From Halomicronema sp. CCY15110 (GTDB lineage Bacteria; Cyanobacteriota; Cyanobacteriia; Phormidesmidales; Phormidesmidaceae), in NCBI RefSeq assembly GCF_016888165.1, contig NZ_JACSWC010000441.1:1-63014 (forward strand): a stretch of DNA of 63,014 nt, in the 5' to 3' direction. Position numbers and translations under genes: made by a program. This document shows, piece after piece, positions 228 to 11,927 of this stretch (within the stretch, counting starts at the first letter, position 1; each line of letters opens with the position of its first letter). The notes under the pieces were generated by a model, which did no database searches, was not told the DNA's origin, and was given only the letters and a program-made list of their open reading frames with translations.

Positions 228-3200
228 TTAAAAAGGAGGTCGCCGCAGGAGAGCTGTGGCCCCTTGCGTGGCGAGGGCTGGCGCAAAGTAATAGCCCTGG
301 CCAAATTGACATTTGTTTTTCTGCAAGTACACCAGAACATCGTGATTTTCGATGCCTTCGGCAATGACTACTAAATTGAGATTAAGGGCCAGGTTAATGA
401 TCGCTTTCACAATTTCATAATCACGCGGATTAGACTGGCGAGCATTAAGATTCAAGATGAACGATTTATCGATCTTTAAAATATCGACCGGAAATTGGTG
501 CAAATAGCTGAGGGATGAATAGCCGGTACCAAAATCATCCATGCAGACGGCAATATCGCGCGCCCGAAATTCATTCAGGGTTTGCACCGCGAGGGCGCTA
601 TTGGTAATTAAGACACTCTCGGTAATCTCGAGCTTGAGCGATCGCCCGGCCAAATTTGCGGCAGCTAGGGCATGGTCAATTTGCTGGATGAGATCGGGTT
701 GCGAAAATTGCCGCCCCGACAAATTGACACTCATCGTTATGTCTTGAAACTCTGGCTCCATCTGCTGCCACCGACGGAGCTGTTGGCAAGCCTGATTCAA
801 AACCCACAGGTCAATAGCGGCGATGAGTCCGGTATCTTCGGCAACTTCGACAAAGGCTCCTGGATAGAGGAGCCCTCGGGTGGGATGCTGCCACCGCACC
901 AATGCTTCGAACCCCACAATGCGCCCCGTTGAGAGGGCGACAATCGGTTGAAAATGGAGCCGAAATTCTTCACGGTTAATCGCATGGCGCAGATCATGTT
1001 CCAGCGTCATCTGCTCTAGGGCGATCGCATGCATGGAGGCATCAAACACCACATATTCGTGGCTGCCTTTCTTCGCTTCATACATGGCAATATCGGCATT
1101 TTGCACGATTTGCTCCGGCGCAGTATGGTAATTGCTGCTAAACGTGATGCCAATACTGGCGCGAATAAAGATTTCGCGATCGTCGAGAAAAATCGGTAAT
1201 TCCAACACATTGTGAATGCGCCGAGCCACCTCAATGGCAAACTGCGGCTCCGCGAGATCTTCGAGTAACACCACAAATTCATCGCCCCCTAACCGGGCCG
1301 CAATGTCGATGTCTCGCAAACAATTGGTGAGCCGTTCTGCTACTAGCTGTAATAGCTGATCGCCCACGGCATGGCCGAGACTGTCATTGATGACCTTGAA
1401 GCGATCGAGGTCAAGAAATAGGACGGCAAACTCGGTGGAGGCGTGGGTTGGCGGCACCTCGACGGGGTCGCGCTGGTGGCGCTGATAGCGCCGCAGGGCC
1501 AGTTGCAGCCGCTCTAAAAATAGAGCGCGGTTGGGCAGGCCAGTGAGGGCATCGTGCAGGGCATCATGTCGCAACTGATCTTCGAGTCGCTGCCGTTGCT
1601 GCAACTCGGCTTGGGCCTGTTGATACAGCTCCGCCTGCTGAATGGCGATCGCCAACTGGTCGGCCACTTGTTTAATCAGCGCACATTCCTGGTCAGTCCA
1701 TTGTCGCGCCACGGGATGATGTATGCAGAGGAGACCCTTGAACTGATTTTGGTCACGAATCGCCACCGTCAACATGGCCCCGATGTCGAGTTGTGACAAA
1801 ATATCCACAACTGCGGTGAGGCGAGGATCCTGCGTGACGTCATGACTGGCCACTGGAGCCGCTTGCGAGGAGACTGCCGCGATGAGGAGACAGTCCTGCC
1901 CGCTCACTTGCTGCCCCTGCAACGAAGCTAGGCCGGGTTGCGCAGACGATGCCCAATATTCCAAAGTATCGTCGTCTGTCATGCGCAGTGAAATCGCACA
2001 ACGCCCCGCTTGAAACACGGTTAACAGAGTTTGAGTCGTCTGCTCCAAAATTTCCTGCAAGTCCAGGCTGTCGCGAATGCTGTTAACAATTTCATTCAGC
2101 AGTTGCTCTTGCTGGGCAATTCGTTGCGAGGTAGCGAGCAGCTGAGCTTGCTGGACCGCAATTTCGACTTGCTCACATAATTGCTTCACAAACTCGACTT
2201 CGTCGGGTTGCCAATGCCGAGGACTACGGCATTGGTGAATGCACAACAAGCCCCACAGCTGCTCATTCACCACGAGGGGCAGCACCAGATTCGCCTGGAT
2301 CTGATAATGCTGCAAGAACTCGCGATAGCAGGGCAAAACATCGGCGGTGCTGACATCGGTAATTTGGCTGATGTGTCCCTGGCGATAAGACTCTGTCCAC
2401 TTATCGGCAAAACAGGGATCGCGCAGCGTTTCGCCTAATACCGAGATCCACTCGGTACCGACCGACTCCACGGTGATATCGCCACTCCAATCGGGGGCGA
2501 ACTGATAAATGAGGACGCGATCGGTGTGCAGAAATTCGCGAATCCGTATCACCGCTGTCTGCAAAATGGTGTCGAGATCGAGGCTGTGGCGAATGTTTGC
2601 GGTCAGCTCGCGCAGCAGTCGCTCGCGCTCAGCCTGCTGGCGTAGTCGGTCTTGCGCAGTGACGAGATCGGTAATGTCGGTGGCCACTAATCCCAAAAGT
2701 TGGGGCTGATCGGGCCGTGACAATACGGGAAACAGCACGGACTGTAAGATGCGCTCTTGGCCGTCTTTTTGTAGGCGGTCTTCGATCACTAGGGGTTGCT
2801 GGGTCGCGACCAATTGCTGAACCCGTGACATGAAGAGAGCAGCTACTTCATGAGAATGCAGGTCAGAAAAGTAGTGTCCTTCAATCGCAGTGGCGGGTTT
2901 GCCTAAAAATTCAGCCGTGATGGCGTTGACTTTGTGATAGCGCCCGGTTTCGTCATACAGTTCGATGATGGCGGGGGAATTGTGCATCAGGGCATGGAGA
3001 ATTTCATGGGCTTCGACGAGCTCCAGTGCCGATTGCTTGCGATCGCTAATATCCTCATTCACCCCAATGACCCGCACCACCTGTCCGTTAGCATCGCGAA
3101 CAAAGTAGCCGTGGGCCTCAATATGGCGGATCTCGCCAGTGGGGTGAATAATGCGAAACTCCGAATGAAAACCCGGTTGTTCTGACTGCTGCGCTGCAAT

Positions 3201-6200
3201 TTCGCCTTGGACGATGGCCAGATCGTCAGGATGCACCATGGCGTACCAGTCTTGATGGCGACCCGAATGCTCGGCGACGGTGATGCCGTAAATCTCGTAC
3301 ATCTGCTCATCCCAAAAGGTGCGATCGCTGGCGATGTCCCATTCCCAAATCCCGAGGTGAGCGGCTTCAGTCGCGAGGGTGAGGCGCTGGGTCGTCTCCT
3401 GCAAGATGATTTCTTTTTGGTGGCGATCGCTAATATCGCGATTCACACCAATCATGCGAATGGGCTGCCCCGCCGCATCGCGCAAAATCTGCGCATAGGT
3501 CTCGAGATATCGCACTGCCCCATCAGCCCGGATAATCCGAAACTCGACACTGTAAATGGCATCCCTCTGTAGTGCAGCCTTTGACGTGGCCAGCAAGCCG
3601 GGCCAATCATCGGGGTGGACTAAGCGCTGCCAGGCTTCGTAGGTGCCCTCAAACTCACCAGGAGACAGGCCGTGAATCGTATGCTGCCGCTCATCCCACG
3701 TCAGGGTTTGGGTGACCATATCCCAGTCCCAAATGCCGAGTTGTGCGGCTTCGCTGGCGATCGCGAGGCGCTGCGACGTTTCCCGCATGGCCTGCTCGCC
3801 CACGGCGCGTTCCGTCACGTCGAGATTGATGCCGATCATCTTCTGCACTTGCCCGCGGGCATCGCGAATGATGATGGCGTGGTCTTCGACGTAGCGCACC
3901 TCACCATTGGGGCGAATAATCCGATAGTGCTTGTGCATTTCGGTGGCATCGCCACGCAGGTCAGCCAATTCGCGGTCTAAAACGTGCACGTCCTCAGGAT
4001 GAATACTCGCCGCCCAATCGTCGTAAGCAATGTCTTTGGCGATGGGTTCCCGGCCATAAATTTCTGACATGCGGGCGTCAAACCACAGCGTATTAGTATC
4101 AGGGGCGAACTCCCAAATGCCAATGCGGCCCGACTGGGTAGCCAGGCGCAAGCGACTCGACAGTTGCCGAATGCTGTGTTCGCTGGCTTTGCGATCGCTA
4201 ATATCCCGATTTAAGCCAATGAGTCGTTGTACCGCGCCATCCAGATTGCGCACCACTGTCAGATGCGCTTCGAGATTGCGAATTTCGCCGTCGGCTTGTC
4301 TAATCCGAAATTCTAGTTGGAGCTGATTCTCGCCCTGATGCAATGCTGTTTCCAAGGCCTCCATCTGATGGCTATCTTCAGGATGTAGATACGTGCTCAG
4401 CCAAGTTTCAAAGTTGGGCGGCTCTAGGTCGGCAGTTAGGCCATGGATTTGCCGCACTCGTTCGTCCCACACACACTGACCCGTGGTGTAGTCCAGTTCC
4501 CAAACGCCCAGCGCGGCAGATGTGGTGGCGAGCGCCAGACGCTGCGAGAGGTCGCGAATTTCCCGCTCGGCCTGTTTGCGCTCAGTAATGTCTTCGCCAA
4601 TGCAAGTGAAATTAATGACCTCATCCTGGTCATTGTGCTGCACAGTATTATTCCAGGCGATGAGGCGGCGATCGCCCGTTCGCGTGACGATTTCATTTTC
4701 GTAATAAGTCGGAAAATCTGCTTGATTGATGGTCTGATTAAAAATCGCTTGTAACTCTGACCGGATTTCTATCGGCAAAAACATCGTGAACCAGTTTTGG
4801 CCGATCACCTCATCGCGCTGCCAACCCGTCAGGGATAGCACATAGTCATTGGCGAATAAAATATTGCCCTGCGAGTCGGTCATGATGGCGACCATCGCCA
4901 GCGTTTCCAACACATTGCGAAACCGCTGTTCAGAGCGTTGCAAGTCCTGCTCAGCCTGTTTGCGATCGGTGATGTCGCGCCCCACGGCGACGATCGTCGT
5001 CACCTGTCCGGCCTTATCCAACACGGCTTGGTTCGACCAAGACAACCACCGCCAGCCCTGGTTAGTGAGGGTGCGTTGCTCTAAGCGACTCTTGTGGGGC
5101 GGTTGCCACAGGGCGTCCCACTGTTGCTGGACGGCGGCGTGATCATCGGGATGGCCAGGGGGACGAAAGTCCGTCTCAATCAACTCCGCCAGCGTTTTGT
5201 CGAAGAGTTGACAGTAGGACGGACTGGCAAACAGTAACGTGCGATCAGGCGCGAGTTGCAGAATGAAATCAGTTTGGTTTTCGACCAACAGCCGATAGTG
5301 TTGTTCGCTCTCGGCCAAGTTGGCAACGGCATCCCGCAATTGGGTGACATCGCGCTGAACGCCAAAGATCCCAGTGATGCGCCCGGCATCGTCATACAGA
5401 CACAGATAGTCCCCTTCAATCCAGATGGGGGTACCGTCAACCCGCCGCTCATGGGTGTCGATATGGAGACGACCCTCGTCAAATAACTGTCGAAAAATGG
5501 CGCGACCCGTGGGGCGATCGTGGGCAAAGAAGTCGTTGGGGGTCCACCCCAGAATGTGATCAATTTGGCTCAGCCCATATTGCTGGCAGAAGGCTTGATT
5601 AGCTTTTGTAATGTGCTGGTGAGCCAAGATGTAATCGAGGACGGCATTGATGTCGACGCTGTCGTGCCATGCAATCGGCTCGTCCAGCATCATGAAAAAG
5701 AAGCCGTCTAGCGATTGCATGAAAAAAAGATTGAGCTGTTGCTCGCGATCGCGCAGGGTTTGCTCGGCCTGCTTATAGTCGGTAATGTTGCGGCCACTCG
5801 CCTGAATCTCGATCAGCTGCCCTTGCGCATCAAAAAAGGCCTGATTCACCCACTGGTGCCATGCCCTCTGGCCGGTGGCCCCGATCACCATATGCTCATG
5901 GGTCACGATGGGGCGATCGCTCGAAAGCTGCTGCAATTCGACGATTTGTTGCCTCACCTGCGCCTGATGCTCAGGGGGCACGAGGTCAATAAAGTTACTC
6001 CCCATTAACTCAGCGGACGAGCGCTGAAAAAAGCGACAATACGCTTCGTTGACAAAGGTCAGCGTGCCGTCTGACGTTAATCGACAAATCAGTTCCGTTT
6101 GGGTATCGATGACGTGGCGATATCGTTGCTCACTCAGTCGCAATGCCTGATTCATTTGTTCTAAGGCTTGCACATAGTGATTAACCTGGGCGGTGAGTTC

Positions 6201-7091
6201 TTGTTGGCGTTGTTCCGCAATTTTGCGCTCGGTAATGTCTTGTTTAATGGCAATGAAATGAGTGATTTCTGCGGCCTGGTTATATACCGGCGTGATGGTC
6301 ATGGCTTCGACATAGTGGGTCTGATCTTTGCGACGGTTAATGATTTCGCCGCGCCACACCTCTCCCGCCGTAATGATTTGCCAAAGCTGTCGAAAGAAGG
6401 CTGGATCCTGTTGCCCAGAATTGACCAACTCACGCGGATTACACCCGATCGCCTCATCCAGGCTATAGCCCGTGAGTTGAGTAAACGCGGGATTCGCCCA
6501 TTCAATCGTGCCGTGGCGATCGGTAATGACAACGGCATCGGCACAGGCGCTCAGCGCGACACTTTGTAAGTGCAGTTGGGCAGCGGTATCCGCGAGCGCA
6601 TAACAGGCATTCTCGGGCGGTAGCGAAGGGGCGATCGCCGCCGCCAACTGTAATCCCTGAAAGATGTTTGGCTGACTTTCTTGCAACATTAATAAATGGA
6701 TATCCTCCCCCACATTCGCAATTACTGAAAAATGTAATGATTGCGGTTGCCCATGGTCATTCTGCAAGGTCAGAAGTCCATGGCAAGATGCCTGAATGGG
6801 GGGCATTAACGCATCACTGTTTGGTGTTTCAGCGGTGACTAAAAGTTGCTGGAGCGATCGCTCCAGCAACTTTTGTGGGCCAACACCGAATAAGTCGCAC
6901 GCTTGTTGATTAGCGGCCAAAAATCGACCCTGTGGATTAATCAGGAGTCCGGCAACCGACAACTCATCAAATAGCTGACCCAGATGTTCACGCGATAAAG
7001 TCAGGCTCAAAGGCAAGAAAAACGAGGACTTTCCTGCGGATAACCAAGAGCGCTCATCAACGGGTTGAGACTCACGATTGAGATTAGACAT
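228..7091 (-). CDS. Giant multi-PAS/GAF diguanylate cyclase-phosphodiesterase with cyanobacteriochrome-like GAF
   Basis: 2287 residues and no obvious membrane segment, so probably a soluble cyclic-di-GMP enzyme. In order I see about eleven PAS units (about residues 35-1500), many ending in the PAC-type D-I-(T/S)-(E/D)-R element, then GAF1 (about 1495-1660), GAF2 (about 1690-1845), GGDEF (motif 1935-1939) and EAL (E2062-L2064). The GGDEF is intact and is preceded five residues upstream by an RxxD inhibitory-site pattern (RDID). The EAL domain keeps EALVRW, an EITES block, DDFGTGYSS and DILKIDKSF, so both activities look possible. GAF1 carries a DPCF motif (Cys1560) and a second cysteine at 1588, as in DXCF cyanobacteriochromes. 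PAS7-PAS10 resemble each other closely and look like internal duplications. The gene is divergent from the glutamate dehydrogenase family gene. The enzyme domains are certain; the sensed signal is inferred. Confidence 0.95.
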   Translation of the reverse strand: MSNLNRESQPVDERSWLSAGKSSFFLPLSLTLSREHLGQLFDELSVAGLLINPQGRFLAANQQACDLFGVGPQKLLERSLQQLLVTAETPNSDALMPPIQASCHGLLTLQNDHGQPQSLHFSVIANVGEDIHLLMLQESQPNIFQGLQLAAAIAPSLPPENACYALADTAAQLHLQSVALSACADAVVITDRHGTIEWANPAFTQLTGYSLDEAIGCNPRELVNSGQQDPAFFRQLWQIITAGEVWRGEIINRRKDQTHYVEAMTITPVYNQAAEITHFIAIKQDITERKIAEQRQQELTAQVNHYVQALEQMNQALRLSEQRYRHVIDTQTELICRLTSDGTLTFVNEAYCRFFQRSSAELMGSNFIDLVPPEHQAQVRQQIVELQQLSSDRPIVTHEHMVIGATGQRAWHQWVNQAFFDAQGQLIEIQASGRNITDYKQAEQTLRDREQQLNLFFMQSLDGFFFMMLDEPIAWHDSVDINAVLDYILAHQHITKANQAFCQQYGLSQIDHILGWTPNDFFAHDRPTGRAIFRQLFDEGRLHIDTHERRVDGTPIWIEGDYLCLYDDAGRITGIFGVQRDVTQLRDAVANLAESEQHYRLLVENQTDFILQLAPDRTLLFASPSYCQLFDKTLAELIETDFRPPGHPDDHAAVQQQWDALWQPPHKSRLEQRTLTNQGWRWLSWSNQAVLDKAGQVTTIVAVGRDITDRKQAEQDLQRSEQRFRNVLETLAMVAIMTDSQGNILFANDYVLSLTGWQRDEVIGQNWFTMFLPIEIRSELQAIFNQTINQADFPTYYENEIVTRTGDRRLIAWNNTVQHNDQDEVINFTCIGEDITERKQAEREIRDLSQRLALATTSAALGVWELDYTTGQCVWDERVRQIHGLTADLEPPNFETWLSTYLHPEDSHQMEALETALHQGENQLQLEFRIRQADGEIRNLEAHLTVVRNLDGAVQRLIGLNRDISDRKASEHSIRQLSSRLRLATQSGRIGIWEFAPDTNTLWFDARMSEIYGREPIAKDIAYDDWAASIHPEDVHVLDRELADLRGDATEMHKHYRIIRPNGEVRYVEDHAIIIRDARGQVQKMIGINLDVTERAVGEQAMRETSQRLAIASEAAQLGIWDWDMVTQTLTWDERQHTIHGLSPGEFEGTYEAWQRLVHPDDWPGLLATSKAALQRDAIYSVEFRIIRADGAVRYLETYAQILRDAAGQPIRMIGVNRDISDRHQKEIILQETTQRLTLATEAAHLGIWEWDIASDRTFWDEQMYEIYGITVAEHSGRHQDWYAMVHPDDLAIVQGEIAAQQSEQPGFHSEFRIIHPTGEIRHIEAHGYFVRDANGQVVRVIGVNEDISDRKQSALELVEAHEILHALMHNSPAIIELYDETGRYHKVNAITAEFLGKPATAIEGHYFSDLHSHEVAALFMSRVQQLVATQQPLVIEDRLQKDGQERILQSVLFPVLSRPDQPQLLGLVATDITDLVTAQDRLRQQAERERLLRELTANIRHSLDLDTILQTAVIRIREFLHTDRVLIYQFAPDWSGDITVESVGTEWISVLGETLRDPCFADKWTESYRQGHISQITDVSTADVLPCYREFLQHYQIQANLVLPLVVNEQLWGLLCIHQCRSPRHWQPDEVEFVKQLCEQVEIAVQQAQLLATSQRIAQQEQLLNEIVNSIRDSLDLQEILEQTTQTLLTVFQAGRCAISLRMTDDDTLEYWASSAQPGLASLQGQQVSGQDCLLIAAVSSQAAPVASHDVTQDPRLTAVVDILSQLDIGAMLTVAIRDQNQFKGLLCIHHPVARQWTDQECALIKQVADQLAIAIQQAELYQQAQAELQQRQRLEDQLRHDALHDALTGLPNRALFLERLQLALRRYQRHQRDPVEVPPTHASTEFAVLFLDLDRFKVINDSLGHAVGDQLLQLVAERLTNCLRDIDIAARLGGDEFVVLLEDLAEPQFAIEVARRIHNVLELPIFLDDREIFIRASIGITFSSNYHTAPEQIVQNADIAMYEAKKGSHEYVVFDASMHAIALEQMTLEHDLRHAINREEFRLHFQPIVALSTGRIVGFEALVRWQHPTRGLLYPGAFVEVAEDTGLIAAIDLWVLNQACQQLRRWQQMEPEFQDITMSVNLSGRQFSQPDLIQQIDHALAAANLAGRSLKLEITESVLITNSALAVQTLNEFRARDIAVCMDDFGTGYSSLSYLHQFPVDILKIDKSFILNLNARQSNPRDYEIVKAIINLALNLNLVVIAEGIENHDVLVYLQKNKCQFGQGYYFAPALATQGATALLRRPPF

Positions 7092-7383
7092 GAGGGCCTA
7101 TAGGGTTTACTCAACATCCGAAATACTACGGATGTGGTAACCAAGCTTGCTAATGTATTTAGCCGCTTAGCGTAGCTAGTATGCCCAGATTGTAGAGCTC
7201 TGGCCGACTCAGGGGCGACAGCCTTTAAGTTTTGTAGACTCCAGTGACAATTCATCTGGATACATTCAAATGCCCTGACTGTAGACGGGACAATGACATT
7301 ATCCAATCACAATTTATTCAGCCACATCATGGCTCCTACATCGTTGCCACTAGGGGTCATCGTTGGCGATGAAAAGAGGTATC
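7092..7383. other. Divergent intergenic region
   Basis: This 292-bp spacer must hold the promoters of the cyclic-di-GMP gene (minus) and the dehydrogenase (plus). I see no convincing -35/-10 pair, no RNA gene and no repeat in it. Confidence 0.5.
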
Positions 7384-8670
7384 ATGACAGCTTCATTATT
7401 GTCGGATGCAAATCGGCGACTGGCGCGGGCGCTGAAACATGTGCAGATTTCCGAGGATGCCAGCGAGCGGTTGCAGTTTCCCAAAGCCAGTCTCAAGGTT
7501 TCGATTCCTGTGCGGATGGATGACGGCTCGCTGCGGGTGTTTGAGGGCTATCGGGTGCGCTATGACGATACGCGGGGGCCGACCAAAGGGGGCATCCGCT
7601 TTCACCCCAAGGTCAGCATGGATGAGGTGCAGTCCCTCGCGTTTTGGATGACCTTCAAATGCGCGGCGGTCAATCTGCCCTTTGGTGGGGCAAAAGGTGG
7701 GATTACGCTCAATCCCAAGGAACTTTCGAAGTTTGAGTTGGAACGACTCAGCCGGGGCTATGTGGATGCGATCGCCGATTTCATTGGCCCGGATATCGAC
7801 ATTCCGGCACCGGATGTCTACACCAACCCGATGATTATGGGCTGGATGATGGATCAGTACAGCATCATTCGTCGCCAATTATGCCCAGCGGTGATCACGG
7901 GCAAGCCGTTGGGCATGGGCGGCAGTCAGGGGCGCGATCGGGCCACTGGCACTGGGGCGTTTTATGTGCTCCAGGCGATGTTGTCCAAGTTTGACCGGAT
8001 CCCCGCCGAAACCACCGTCGCGGTGCAGGGGTTTGGCAATGCGGGCAGCGTGATTGCGCGGTTACTCTTTGATGCAGGCTATAAGGTGGTCGCCGTCAGC
8101 GACTCGCGCGGGGGGGTGTATTGCGATCGCGGCCTCGATATTCCCAGTTTGCAACAGTTCAAAGCCTCGACCCGCAGCCTACAAGCGGTGTATTGCGAAG
8201 GTACGGTGTGTAATTTAGTCGATGGTCAAGAAACTATCACCAATGAAGATCTCCTCACGCTGGATGTGGATATTTTGATTCCCGCTGCGTTGGAAAACCA
8301 AATCACCGCCGACAATGCCCCCCTGGTGCAGGCCAAATATATCTTTGAAGTGGCGAACGGGCCGATTACCTCAGAGGGCGATCGCATTCTCGAAGACAAA
8401 GGGGTATATGTGTTTCCCGACATTTTGGTGAATGCGGGAGGCGTTATCGTCAGCTACTACGAGTGGGTGCAAAATCGCAGTGGCTTGTACTGGACTGAAG
8501 CCGAGGTCAGCGATCGGCTCAAAACTAAAATAATTGAGGAAGCGGAAAAAATCTGGCGCATTGCCCAAAACCTCGCCATTCCCCCGCGCACCGCCGCCTA
8601 TGTCCACGCCCTCGAAAGGTTAGAGGAAGCCCACAGCGCCCGTGGCACCCGCGACTACTACGTCAGCTAA
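7384..8670 (+). CDS. gdhA: Glu/Leu/Phe/Val dehydrogenase family, probably glutamate dehydrogenase
   Basis: About 428 residues from the chosen start. Enzymes of this family interconvert glutamate and 2-oxoglutarate plus ammonium with NAD(P)(H). The N-terminal dimerisation/substrate domain has a glycine-rich KGGIRFHP stretch and the catalytic-lysine block GGAKGGI. The C-terminal Rossmann domain starts near VAVQGFGNAGS, and the ANGP motif follows. I chose ATG 7384 because AAGAGG lies just upstream. A longer frame from TTG 7363 would place that ribosome site inside the gene. The gene stands alone, divergent from the cyclic-di-GMP gene. Glutamate rather than leucine or valine as substrate is inferred from family frequency in cyanobacteria. 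Confidence 0.9.
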   Translation: MTASLLSDANRRLARALKHVQISEDASERLQFPKASLKVSIPVRMDDGSLRVFEGYRVRYDDTRGPTKGGIRFHPKVSMDEVQSLAFWMTFKCAAVNLPFGGAKGGITLNPKELSKFELERLSRGYVDAIADFIGPDIDIPAPDVYTNPMIMGWMMDQYSIIRRQLCPAVITGKPLGMGGSQGRDRATGTGAFYVLQAMLSKFDRIPAETTVAVQGFGNAGSVIARLLFDAGYKVVAVSDSRGGVYCDRGLDIPSLQQFKASTRSLQAVYCEGTVCNLVDGQETITNEDLLTLDVDILIPAALENQITADNAPLVQAKYIFEVANGPITSEGDRILEDKGVYVFPDILVNAGGVIVSYYEWVQNRSGLYWTEAEVSDRLKTKIIEEAEKIWRIAQNLAIPPRTAAYVHALERLEEAHSARGTRDYYVS

Positions 8671-8856
8671 CCCCGACTTCCAGCCCCCGGCGGCGTCGAG
8701 ACACGTAGCTGCTGAGCGTGCTTGTTGGAGCCCCCGCCCCCTTGCCAAGGGTATTCAGGGGGCTCAGTAGCCGCGTGACGCGAAACCAGTCCCCAGCAGC
8801 CAGGGGGCGGAATACCCCTTACAATCAAGAGCGATCGACCTATCCCTCCATCGCCC

Positions 8857-9957
8857 ATGACCTCTTTGCGTACGCCCCTTTACGACCTTTCCGCCAATCT
8901 CAAAGCCCGCTTCACCGAATTTGCCGGCTGGGAAATGCCCGTGCAGTACAGCGGTATTAAACAAGAGCATCAGGCCGTGCGCACAGCGGCGGGTCTGTTC
9001 GACATATCGCACATGGGCAAGTTCTTTTTGCGGGGGCAGGGCGTGCTGGCCGCCTTGCAAACGCTAGTGCCGTCCGACCTCAGCCGCCTGACGCCGGGGG
9101 AAGCCCAATATACCGTGCTGCTGAATCCCCAAGGGGGCATCATTGACGACCTGATCATCTACTCTCAGGGCACCGAGTTGGATGGCCGCGAGCGGGTCGC
9201 CATCATTGTGAATGCGGCCACCACCGACAAAGACAAAGCTTGGATGACGGAGCATTTGTCAGCTGATATCGCGTTTGAGGATGTGTCGCGCGATCGCGCC
9301 CTCATCGCTGTCCAAGGCCCGGAAGCGGTGGCCCAATTGCAGCGCCTCACCGCCGAAGATCTCGACAAAGTCGGTCGGTTTGGCCACATCGAAGGCACCG
9401 TGTTGGGCCAACCCGCGTTTCTGGCCCGCACTGGCTACACCGGCGAAGACGGCTTTGAAGTAATGATGAGCGCCGACGGTGGGCAAGCACTCTGGCAAAC
9501 CCTCGTCGAAAATGGCGTCATGCCTTGCGGTCTCGGCGCTCGCGACACCCTGCGCCTCGAAGCCGCCATGGCCTTGTATGGTCAAGACATCACTGACGAC
9601 ACCACCCCGCTAGAAGCGGGACTGAAGTGGCTCGTTCACCTAGATGGGGCGGGCGAGTTTATCGGTCGTCAAGTGCTAGAGCAGCAAAGTACGGACGGCG
9701 TGGCGCGGCGCTTAGTGGGGCTACAGATGGAGGGGCGCAACATCGCCCGTCACGATTATCCCGTTATGCAGGATGGGGCAGCCGTGGGCATTGTCACCAG
9801 TGGTACCTTGTCACCAACGTTGGGCTACCCCATCGCCTTAGCCTACGTCCCCGCTAACCTGGGCAAAGTGGGACAATCCCTAGCGGTCGAAATTCGCGGC
9901 AAGACGTTTCCCGCTCAAGTCGTGAAAAAACCTTTTTATAAACGCAAAACGTCATGA
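8857..9957 (+). CDS. gcvT: Aminomethyltransferase, T-protein of the glycine cleavage system
   Basis: 366 residues, the usual length. It transfers the methylene group from aminomethyl-lipoyl H-protein to tetrahydrofolate and releases ammonia, in photorespiratory glycine breakdown. The N-terminus has the family signature around FAGWEMPVQY and DISHMGKF. The folate-domain motif GYTGEDGFE and the block RDTLRLEAAMALYGQD follow, and a C-terminal barrel domain ends the protein. ATG 8857 is the natural start, although no clear Shine-Dalgarno site precedes it. A TACAAT hexamer at 8820-8825 could be its -10 box. gcvH follows 80 bp downstream on the same strand, but gcvP is not in the window. Confidence 0.96.
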   Translation: MTSLRTPLYDLSANLKARFTEFAGWEMPVQYSGIKQEHQAVRTAAGLFDISHMGKFFLRGQGVLAALQTLVPSDLSRLTPGEAQYTVLLNPQGGIIDDLIIYSQGTELDGRERVAIIVNAATTDKDKAWMTEHLSADIAFEDVSRDRALIAVQGPEAVAQLQRLTAEDLDKVGRFGHIEGTVLGQPAFLARTGYTGEDGFEVMMSADGGQALWQTLVENGVMPCGLGARDTLRLEAAMALYGQDITDDTTPLEAGLKWLVHLDGAGEFIGRQVLEQQSTDGVARRLVGLQMEGRNIARHDYPVMQDGAAVGIVTSGTLSPTLGYPIALAYVPANLGKVGQSLAVEIRGKTFPAQVVKKPFYKRKTS

Positions 9958-9958
9958 G

Positions 9959-9987
9959 TTGACACAACTGGGGTTGATAAATACGCT
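9959..9987 (+). promoter_or_regulatory. Candidate sigma-70-type promoter for gcvH
   Basis: A perfect TTGACA (9959-9964) begins just after the gcvT stop codon. It is followed 17 bases later by TACGCT (9982-9987), a weak -10. This would give gcvH its own transcript with a leader of about 45 bases. The -35 is strong and the -10 poor, so this is tentative. Confidence 0.4.
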
Positions 9988-10037
9988 AACAGGCGTGCGA
10001 CACTGGCAACAGCGCGTGATTACAAGAGAGAACGGTC

Positions 10038-10433
10038 ATGGCCCTTGAGTTTCCCGATGATTTGAAGTACCTGGACACCCACGAATATGCGCGGGTTGAT
10101 GAAGATGACGCGATCGTGACGATCGGGATTTCCGCCTTTGCCTTAGATCAGCTGGGCGACATCGTCTTTTTAGAATTGCCGGACGTGGGTGATACCGTCG
10201 AAAAAGGCGAAACCTTTGGCACGGTGGAGTCAGTGAAAGCGGTGGAAGATTTGAAATCCCCGGTAAATGGCGATGTGCTGGAGCGGAATGAAGCGATCGT
10301 GGATTCCCCTGAGCAGATTGTGGATGACCCCTACGGCGATGCCTGGCTGATCAAAATCAAAGCCGAAAATCTGGAAGATCTAGACGATGCCATGTCGGCC
10401 GATGAGTATCGCGATCAAGTTGAAGGGAGCTAG
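10038..10433 (+). CDS. gcvH: Glycine cleavage system H-protein
   Basis: 131 residues, typical length. This is the lipoylated shuttle protein that carries the aminomethyl intermediate between P-, T- and L-proteins. The lipoyl-lysine motif ESVKAV places the modified lysine at K67, and the family start around [10 protein letters not shown] is clear. A GAGAG ribosome site precedes ATG 10038. It lies downstream of gcvT and may also use its own promoter at 9959. No gcvP follows, so the decarboxylase subunit must be encoded elsewhere. Confidence 0.97.
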
Positions 10434-10796: not shown

Positions 10797-11927
10797 TTAG
10801 TCGTCAAACCAGATGGCCCGCCAAGCATGTTCTGCCTCTGCCCGGGCTTGCTCTTGCCGCAGCGTGCGATACCGACGACCGAGACGTTTGAGCTTATACA
10901 GGGTCTCCTGCAAGCGCCCGCGCCACAACGCGGCCTGGGCATCGGCAAATTCCACATCTGCTAAGCGCAAATTAATCGCCACCAGGTGAGTCATCTCATG
11001 CTCGGGCTCTTCGTCACTCTCAAAGGCGTCGTCGTCATCAAGCACTTCGTCGTCATCGTCTTGAAGGTCATCACGGCGATCGGCCATCTCAACTAGCACA
11101 CTGACTAAATTAGGTTGACTTGGCCCTGGACTATCACCGTCCGCTTCAGTCGCCGCGGCAATCACCATGTCTGGCAGATCTGGCAAAACATTCGCCTGCT
11201 TGAGTAAGTGATTGGCCAAGCTCGAAAGGGTTCGCAAAATTGCCCGCAGATGACGTTCTAAGAGCACATGGCGTTTGGCGAGGCTGATCGGGGTGAGGGG
11301 CTCGGCTTCCAGAATCGAAAATAGGGACAGTGATGTACTCAGCCGCTGTAGCATCACCGCCGCTTCTTCAGAAGCAGCATCAAAATCAGACTGTTCTGCC
11401 GCCGCTGCAGACGAGCCCGGCGTCGAGGCAGCCTGTGCAGCCGCTGGCTCTGAAACCATCGACGATGAGTCAGCAGACTCTACGGTCGATGTCTCTGCGG
11501 GGGGCGGCAAGTCAGCCAGTGGAGAGGACTCATCAGGCGATGCCGTTTGCGGATCATCGTCATCGTCGTCATCGGTGTTTGAGGCAAAGGCTCCGTATTT
11601 GGCAACTACCGCTTCTTCGAGTTGTGCCGCCAAGTCAGCGAGATTGCTGACTTGGCCTAGTTGAGCAATTTGGTCTTGTCCTTGGGCCGCCAGCTGACGT
11701 AAACCGGTTTGTAGCTGCTCGCGCTGTGCCACCGTGAGCGCAATAAACTCTTCTGGATATGCCTGCGTACATAGGTGGTACGCGGCCAGAATTAACTGGC
11801 GTTTGACGGCTTGACCAATGATCCCTAAATAGCTTTGGTAAACCGTTTGTAGAGCTTGATCAAGATCTTGGGTGGAAGCGTCTAATTTGGCGAGGTCTGT
11901 CGCAATTTGGTCAAGGCTTCTGGCCAT
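10797..11927 (-). CDS. Conserved-looking acidic protein of unknown function
   Basis: 376 residues; I do not recognise the family. The first 110 residues look mostly helical with regular hydrophobic spacing. A low-complexity section rich in Ser, Ala, Pro and acids follows and includes a run of seven aspartates. A second helical segment (about residues 190-260) comes next, then another acidic stretch with several Asp/Glu runs, and a basic helical C-terminus ending in WRAIWFDD. There is no signal peptide or membrane segment. The architecture of structured ends and acidic linkers suggests a scaffold or nucleic-acid-mimicking role, but that is only inference. ATG 11927 is the only sensible start. 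Confidence 0.7.
   Translation of the reverse strand: MARSLDQIATDLAKLDASTQDLDQALQTVYQSYLGIIGQAVKRQLILAAYHLCTQAYPEEFIALTVAQREQLQTGLRQLAAQGQDQIAQLGQVSNLADLAAQLEEAVVAKYGAFASNTDDDDDDDPQTASPDESSPLADLPPPAETSTVESADSSSMVSEPAAAQAASTPGSSAAAAEQSDFDAASEEAAVMLQRLSTSLSLFSILEAEPLTPISLAKRHVLLERHLRAILRTLSSLANHLLKQANVLPDLPDMVIAAATEADGDSPGPSQPNLVSVLVEMADRRDDLQDDDDEVLDDDDAFESDEEPEHEMTHLVAINLRLADVEFADAQAALWRGRLQETLYKLKRLGRRYRTLRQEQARAEAEHAWRAIWFDD

Follow-up and report, generated by a model that had tools for sequence, protein, structure and literature searches.

The window analyzed here, a 63,014-nucleotide stretch of DNA from the cyanobacterium Halomicronema sp. CCY15110, encodes a 2287-aa protein whose first GAF domain (GAF1) can almost certainly be assigned to the DXCF cyanobacteriochromes, within the lineage of SesB (Tlr1999). 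An earlier note on this DNA had proposed a bilin-binding DXCF GAF within a giant cyclic-di-GMP enzyme, and this interpretation is supported by sequence motifs, membership in the SesB clade, the fold and the bilin genes of the same genome. The complete reading that we favor, in which a SesB-lineage GAF1 carries a bilin at Cys1588, undergoes a photocycle involving Cys1560 and controls the GGDEF and EAL domains together with cues from the PAS array, has in our estimate a probability of roughly 0.7.

The domain layout of the protein is summarized in Table 1. The cut-off of TIGR00229 (PAS S-box) was passed by 11 stretches, in agreement with the eleven PAS units counted in the earlier note. The two further stretches that had been likened to this family, ANLVLPLV (residues 1600–1607) and LWGLLCIHQC (residues 1612–1621), are both found in GAF1. 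GAF2 sits between the presumed light-sensing GAF1 and the GGDEF domain. The divergent neighbors of the gene (7363-10433, + strand) comprise a gene for a Glu/Leu/Phe/Val dehydrogenase and then the glycine cleavage genes gcvT and gcvH; farther along, at 10797-11927 (− strand), lies an acidic protein of 376 aa with no Pfam match at 1e-5.

Table 1. Features of the giant ORF, with positions in the window
Feature	Residues	Position	Strand	Basis or remark
Whole ORF: PAS array - GAF1 - GAF2 - GGDEF - EAL	2287 aa	228..7091	-	
PAS array, N-terminal (outer limits approximate)	1-1475	2667..7091	-	Pfam, TIGR00229
GAF1, probable DXCF cyanobacteriochrome GAF	1504-1645	2157..2582	-	Pfam, PDB sequence matches, trees, fold
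DPCF motif, second Cys = Cys1560	1558-1561	2409..2420	-	sequence, alignment
Canonical bilin-type Cys1588, then Tyr1589	1588-1589	2325..2330	-	sequence, alignment
PCYREFL	1587-1593	2313-2333	-	sequence
GAF2, without canonical Cys	1675-1817	1641..2069	-	Pfam, alignment
GGDEF domain; RDID (RxxD) and GGDEF present	1843-2008	1068..1565	-	Pfam, alignment
EAL domain; all seven inspected EAL motifs present	2032-2270	282..998	-	Pfam, alignment

Within GAF1, Cys1560 of DPCF and Cys1588 of PCYREFL are exactly 28 residues apart, as had been claimed. The same spacing, attributed to TePixJ and Tlr0924, was recovered from the corresponding ORFs of an anchor genome (G064), both of which have a cysteine 28 residues past that of DPCF. 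In the alignment, Cys1588 coincides with C522 of TePixJ, the canonical GAF cysteine, to which ring A is attached. For the TePixJ pocket, the roles of D492, C494, H498, W499, C522, H523, Q526 and N535 come from PMC6955287, in which R507 figures only as a crystal contact. Eight of the 12 pocket positions considered are identical in GAF1 (D492, C494, F495, W499, Y503, C522, N535 and the His of HQC); at the remaining four, H498 is replaced by Lys, R507 by His, H523 by Tyr and Q526 by Phe. At those four positions SesB shares only the Tyr, and the residue equivalent to W1565 is Tyr in SesB.

Sequence searches matched GAF1 to 104 distinct PDB sequences at E 0.1 or better. Among the best 60 of these, 6oap ranks first (1.2e-45), followed by miRFP670nano (1.4e-36), a related variant and 3vv4 (3.1e-33), with phytochromes lower. 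We take 3vv4 to be TePixJ; for 4fof and 4glq, PixJ appears in the entry titles. An AlphaFold model of GAF1, based on 76 aligned domains (pLDDT 89.5, pTM 0.86), was most similar to 6oaq (Z 26.7, rmsd 1.4, 173 aligned residues) and 6oap (Z 26.2, 172 aligned), both from a dual sensor histidine kinase whose Pg state absorbs green light. TePixJ 4glq gave Z 22.3 and rmsd 2.0 over 149 aligned residues, and several bacteriophytochromes scored equally high or higher (Z 22–23.4). Judging by the model, GAF1 has the fold of a bilin sensor. Because bacteriophytochromes score like TePixJ, the fold by itself can neither pick the subfamily nor prove bilin binding, and the structural similarity was not accepted as demonstrating a DXCF sensor.

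The subfamily was addressed by phylogeny. The starting alignment had 136 rows, consisting of stretches that scored 60 bits or more and had fewer than 25 gaps, six outgroup GAFs and eight PDB stretches; the rows of a first tree were hand-picked from these. In this 72-domain tree, which lacked SesB and from which the motif columns were excluded, GAF1 belonged to an 11-row clade with support of 96/92, made up of eight rows with both cysteines and three same-genus rows with neither. For a second tree of 73 rows, SesA, SesB and SesC were added, and two long outgroup rows, which had joined inside the red/green group in the first tree, were removed. Here, again with the motif columns excluded, GAF1 and SesB/Tlr1999 fell into the same 11-row clade (97/94, with the bootstrap not fully settled). 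Deep branches of this tree are poorly resolved, and Cys-less GAFs lie inside the broader cyanobacteriochrome group. Forcing the seven same-genus rows of the 72-row tree together with ten Cys-less GAFs cost 52 log units and was rejected (p-AU 0.0009), the groups having been chosen post hoc, after inspection of the tree. A placement of GAF1 with non-chromophore GAFs, named in the earlier note as the result that would count against a bilin sensor, was thus looked for and not found; GAF1 falls with the DXCF domain of SesB.

The anchor genome was found with TePixJ as the query, and its matching stretch is 100% identical over all 145 residues of the 3vv4 segment that was used. Its best match to GAF1 is an 806-aa GAF-GGDEF-EAL ORF (47% identical, E 2.1e-55). 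The names SesA, SesB, SesC and Tlr1612 for loci of this genome are our own assignment, based on the identity to 3vv4, domain order, residue numbering, the degenerate GGDEF of SesB and gene order. The published numbering, C499/C527 and C494/C522, fits if translation begins at an upstream Val codon. With these names, GAF1 is 47% identical to SesB, 43% to SesC, 42% to Tlr0924 (SesA) and 33% to TePixJ, so that, at the sequence level, SesB appears as the closest characterized relative found, rather than TePixJ or Tlr0924. A 2012 paper on Tlr1999 reportedly describes, going by its title, blue and teal light sensing with a thiol-based photocycle. The 806-aa ORF fits SesB/Tlr1999 because its GSDEF without RxxD matches the description in PMC5871770, which presents SesB as the only GGDEF protein of its organism without the residues for synthesis. 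According to the same paper and to PMC9090330, SesB is a phosphodiesterase upregulated by teal light, and SesC acts as a diguanylate cyclase in blue and as a phosphodiesterase in green light.

Several known systems come close to the window protein. SesB of Thermosynechococcus resembles it in the combination of DxCF with PCYR(D/E), in the 28-residue spacing, in belonging to the same clade and in its GGDEF-EAL output. However, SesB is only 806 aa from stop to stop, with a single GAF and, by Pfam at 1e-5, no PAS. Its degenerate GGDEF reads GSDEF and lacks RxxD, both motifs being retained in the window protein. Nor does any counterpart of GAF2 separate the sensor of SesB from its GGDEF. SesC/Tlr0911, a bifunctional diguanylate cyclase/phosphodiesterase, likewise combines a PAS array, a DXCF GAF, GGDEF and EAL, but it is a 1257-aa ORF with up to five PAS stretches and a Cys-His pair, and it lies outside the GAF1 clade. 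SesA/Tlr0924, a blue-activated diguanylate cyclase, shares DPCF, the 28-residue spacing and the Cys-Tyr pair; it differs in its CBS-PAS-GAF-GGDEF arrangement, in which no EAL was found, and also lies outside the clade. TePixJ (blue/green; PDB 3vv4, 4glq and 4fof) has DPCF, the W499 equivalent, the same spacing and the same fold, but carries Cys-His and is a chemotaxis-type protein going by its PDB name. Membership in the Tlr1612 family was considered and rejected, as the score against NCBIfam NF053781 (Tlr1612 family phosphodiesterase) was 962.4 bits, below the curated cut-off of 1600. The Tlr1612-type protein of the anchor genome has one Pfam GAF (318-457), and its aligned stretch (L197) has neither DXCF nor the canonical Cys. 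The combination of a PAS array and a DXCF GAF with GGDEF-EAL is thus already known from SesC, and the sensor lineage from SesB; what the window protein, as predicted from its sequence, combines with a SesB-type sensor is a more extended PAS array, an additional GAF and a motif-intact GGDEF.

The Tyr following Cys1588 had been pointed out as a departure from the usual His. This does not hold for the relevant part of the family, where Tyr is a common state shared with both SesB (PCYRDLL) and SesA (DCYRELL). Among two-Cys stretches sampled mostly around GAF1 (n=83), the residue after the canonical Cys is Tyr in 44, His in 36 and Leu in 3; in a sample around TePixJ (n=47), it is Tyr in 5 and His in 42, so the share of each varies with the region of the family that is sampled. 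Two same-genus orthologues (G002 and G003) have His. Since SesB and SesA, both published photoreceptors, carry Tyr, this residue is normal in the GAF1 lineage, and we rejected Tyr1589 as an argument against bilin binding. We also discarded miRFP670nano as a natural Cys-Tyr example: its Tyr is an engineered H87Y, obtained by directed evolution of the NpR3784 domain, and stacks on the bilin. All that follows from it is that a Tyr at this place is compatible with covalent attachment.

The same substitution bears on the most serious alternative, namely that a bilin is bound at Cys1588 but no lasting bond between Cys1560 and C10, or no isomerization, follows, resulting in another photocycle (for example, blue/orange or with mixed pigment), or that the enzymes are controlled unlike those of SesB. 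The position of TePixJ H523, occupied by Tyr in GAF1, is the one that contacts the bilin by stacking in the engineered domain, and the color to which DXCF members shift from blue is, according to PMC5240096, green, teal, yellow or orange. However, the Cys-Tyr pair is common to GAF1 and SesB. Moreover, GAF1 lies in the clade of SesB, for which the title mentioned above speaks of blue and teal sensing through a thiol-based photocycle. We therefore consider such a deviation unlikely, though well worth keeping in mind, and prefer a SesB-type photocycle.

We next consider how the two cysteines are distributed. Loci were fetched for 30 of the 55 GAF matches in the genome itself, for the best 30 from genomes of relatives and for 63 named loci; the named-genome sample was partly collected with a DPCF-containing peptide pattern and is accordingly biased towards DXCF. 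Among 206 distinct GAF stretches from these loci, gapped ones included, 83 have both cysteines, 96 neither, 23 only the canonical and 4 only the DXCF cysteine. Dropping 33 gapped rows leaves 173, with corresponding counts of 83, 66, 20 and 4. Among all the Cys column pairs that were compared, this one showed the strongest association (1.3e-24 in a one-sided Fisher test, against 2e-7 for the next pair; uncorrected for kinship). The genome itself, with 23 stretches, gave 9 with both, 9 with neither, 2 with only the canonical and 3 with only the DXCF cysteine (Fisher 0.012). A phylogenetic test of coupled change, in which 3.0 of 5 pairs changed the same way and none oppositely (median p 0.25), was set aside as the independent changes were too few.

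Same-genus relatives provide a closer view. The nearest orthologue (G001; 2296 aa, 79.9% identical over 2292 positions) retains DPCF and PCY. The versions in G002 and G003 (1825 and 1837 aa) have three Pfam GAF stretches; one GAF has DPCF and PCH (L125 and L126), and the tandem GAF directly following it has lost both cysteines. Both are also lost in G005 (L127), where the PAS array and the GAF-EAL part are in different frames, the change lying near the PAS/GAF junction, and the EAL motif DDFGTG reads DGFGTG. This copy is probably decaying or partly misread, as the frame change may be a sequencing or assembly error; its double loss is consequently weakened as clean evidence of paired selection. 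G004, the fifth genome from the genus, yielded nothing better than a match at 2.6e-43. From these sequences it appears that, within the genus, the cysteine pair is kept or lost together, that not all copies have retained light sensing and that the gene can persist after its light sensor is gone. Outside the genus, a Pfam scan of seven ORFs revealed PAS-GAF-GAF-GGDEF-EAL in two (L041 and L042, with the EAL match partial, at the locus end) and histidine kinase parts in five. In L041 and L042, too, a second, Cys-poor GAF follows the DXCF GAF, and the output is GGDEF-EAL.

These relatives raise the question of whether GAF1 itself might be a structural or dimerizing GAF that has lost bilin binding, its cysteines being leftovers. 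Relatives without the cysteines do occur in the genus, in G005 and as the second GAF of G002 and G003, and the equivalents of R507 and H498 are changed in GAF1. On the other hand, both cysteines as well as D1558, F1561, W1565, Y1569 and N1601 are kept both here and in the 2296-aa orthologue. Moreover, the loci from relatives (n=47) keep or lose the pair as a unit, with 30 stretches having both cysteines, 17 neither and none a single one. A relic of this kind is therefore improbable. Least credible of all is that the pair forms a metal site or a redox site. A GAF pocket with two conserved thiols would in principle be compatible with this, but the cysteines lie exactly where crystal structures of TePixJ show its two thioether bonds to the bilin, and GAF1 groups with SesB in the tree.

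The bilin sensor that we favor would act on output domains whose motifs are in place. The motifs of a diguanylate cyclase, the GGDEF active site and the RxxD inhibitory site, were both found: RDIDIAARLGGDEF. The EAL catalytic set (EAL, N, E, DD, K, E and Q) is complete in an alignment with SesB, SesC, Tlr1612 and the closest PDB chains, 5m3c and 4rnh. Because the GGDEF domain keeps active- and inhibitory-site motifs and the EAL motifs are intact, it is plausible that the protein both makes and breaks cyclic-di-GMP. As for chromophore supply, the same genome has one match to the bilin reductase family PF05996 (Fe_bilin_red) and two to heme oxygenase (PF01126). Of the 23 usable fetched stretches among its 55 GAF matches, 7, including that of the window, have [D/E]-x-C-F and the canonical Cys, so that domains of the DXCF type are no rarity in this genome. 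The other six (L002, L003, L004, L006, L008 and L017) carry Cys-His, bringing the candidate DXCF-type light sensors to at least seven.

Collectively, these observations suggest how the protein might work. Ring A of a phycocyanobilin-derived bilin is most likely bound by Cys1588, the best-founded step. Going by the lineage, and with less certainty, Cys1560 would add reversibly to C10 and favor isomerization to phycoviolobilin, and GAF1 would absorb blue light in its dark state and teal to green light as the photoproduct. The light signal may then leave GAF1 along its long C-terminal helix, enter GAF2 and shift the GGDEF/EAL balance. By analogy with SesB and SesC, teal or green light would probably raise phosphodiesterase output, and blue light would allow synthesis. 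Additional cues may reach this output by way of the PAS array. Going further, we tentatively suggest, as a possibility that is more likely wrong than right, that up to 11 PAS inputs and a SesB-type switch act on a two-way output, and that the genus repeatedly loses the light input through both cysteines while the rest is kept or duplicated. Equally tentative is the nature of that two-way output, with a GGDEF domain still synthesizing under its feedback site and an EAL domain degrading.

If the main reading is correct, the window protein should combine light with further inputs in setting the level of cyclic-di-GMP, which governs whether cells clump or move. The light-to-cyclic-di-GMP system of Thermosynechococcus would thereby extend to a different cyanobacterial lineage. 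The comparisons also show that a Tyr next to the canonical Cys is nothing unusual among the closer relatives of GAF1. The predictions are specific: a blue/teal spectrum for a 180-residue fragment and control of the enzymes for an 800-residue fragment. Moreover, if the reading is true, the Cys-less copies of the same genus would provide a natural and directly comparable set of light-gated and light-blind forms.
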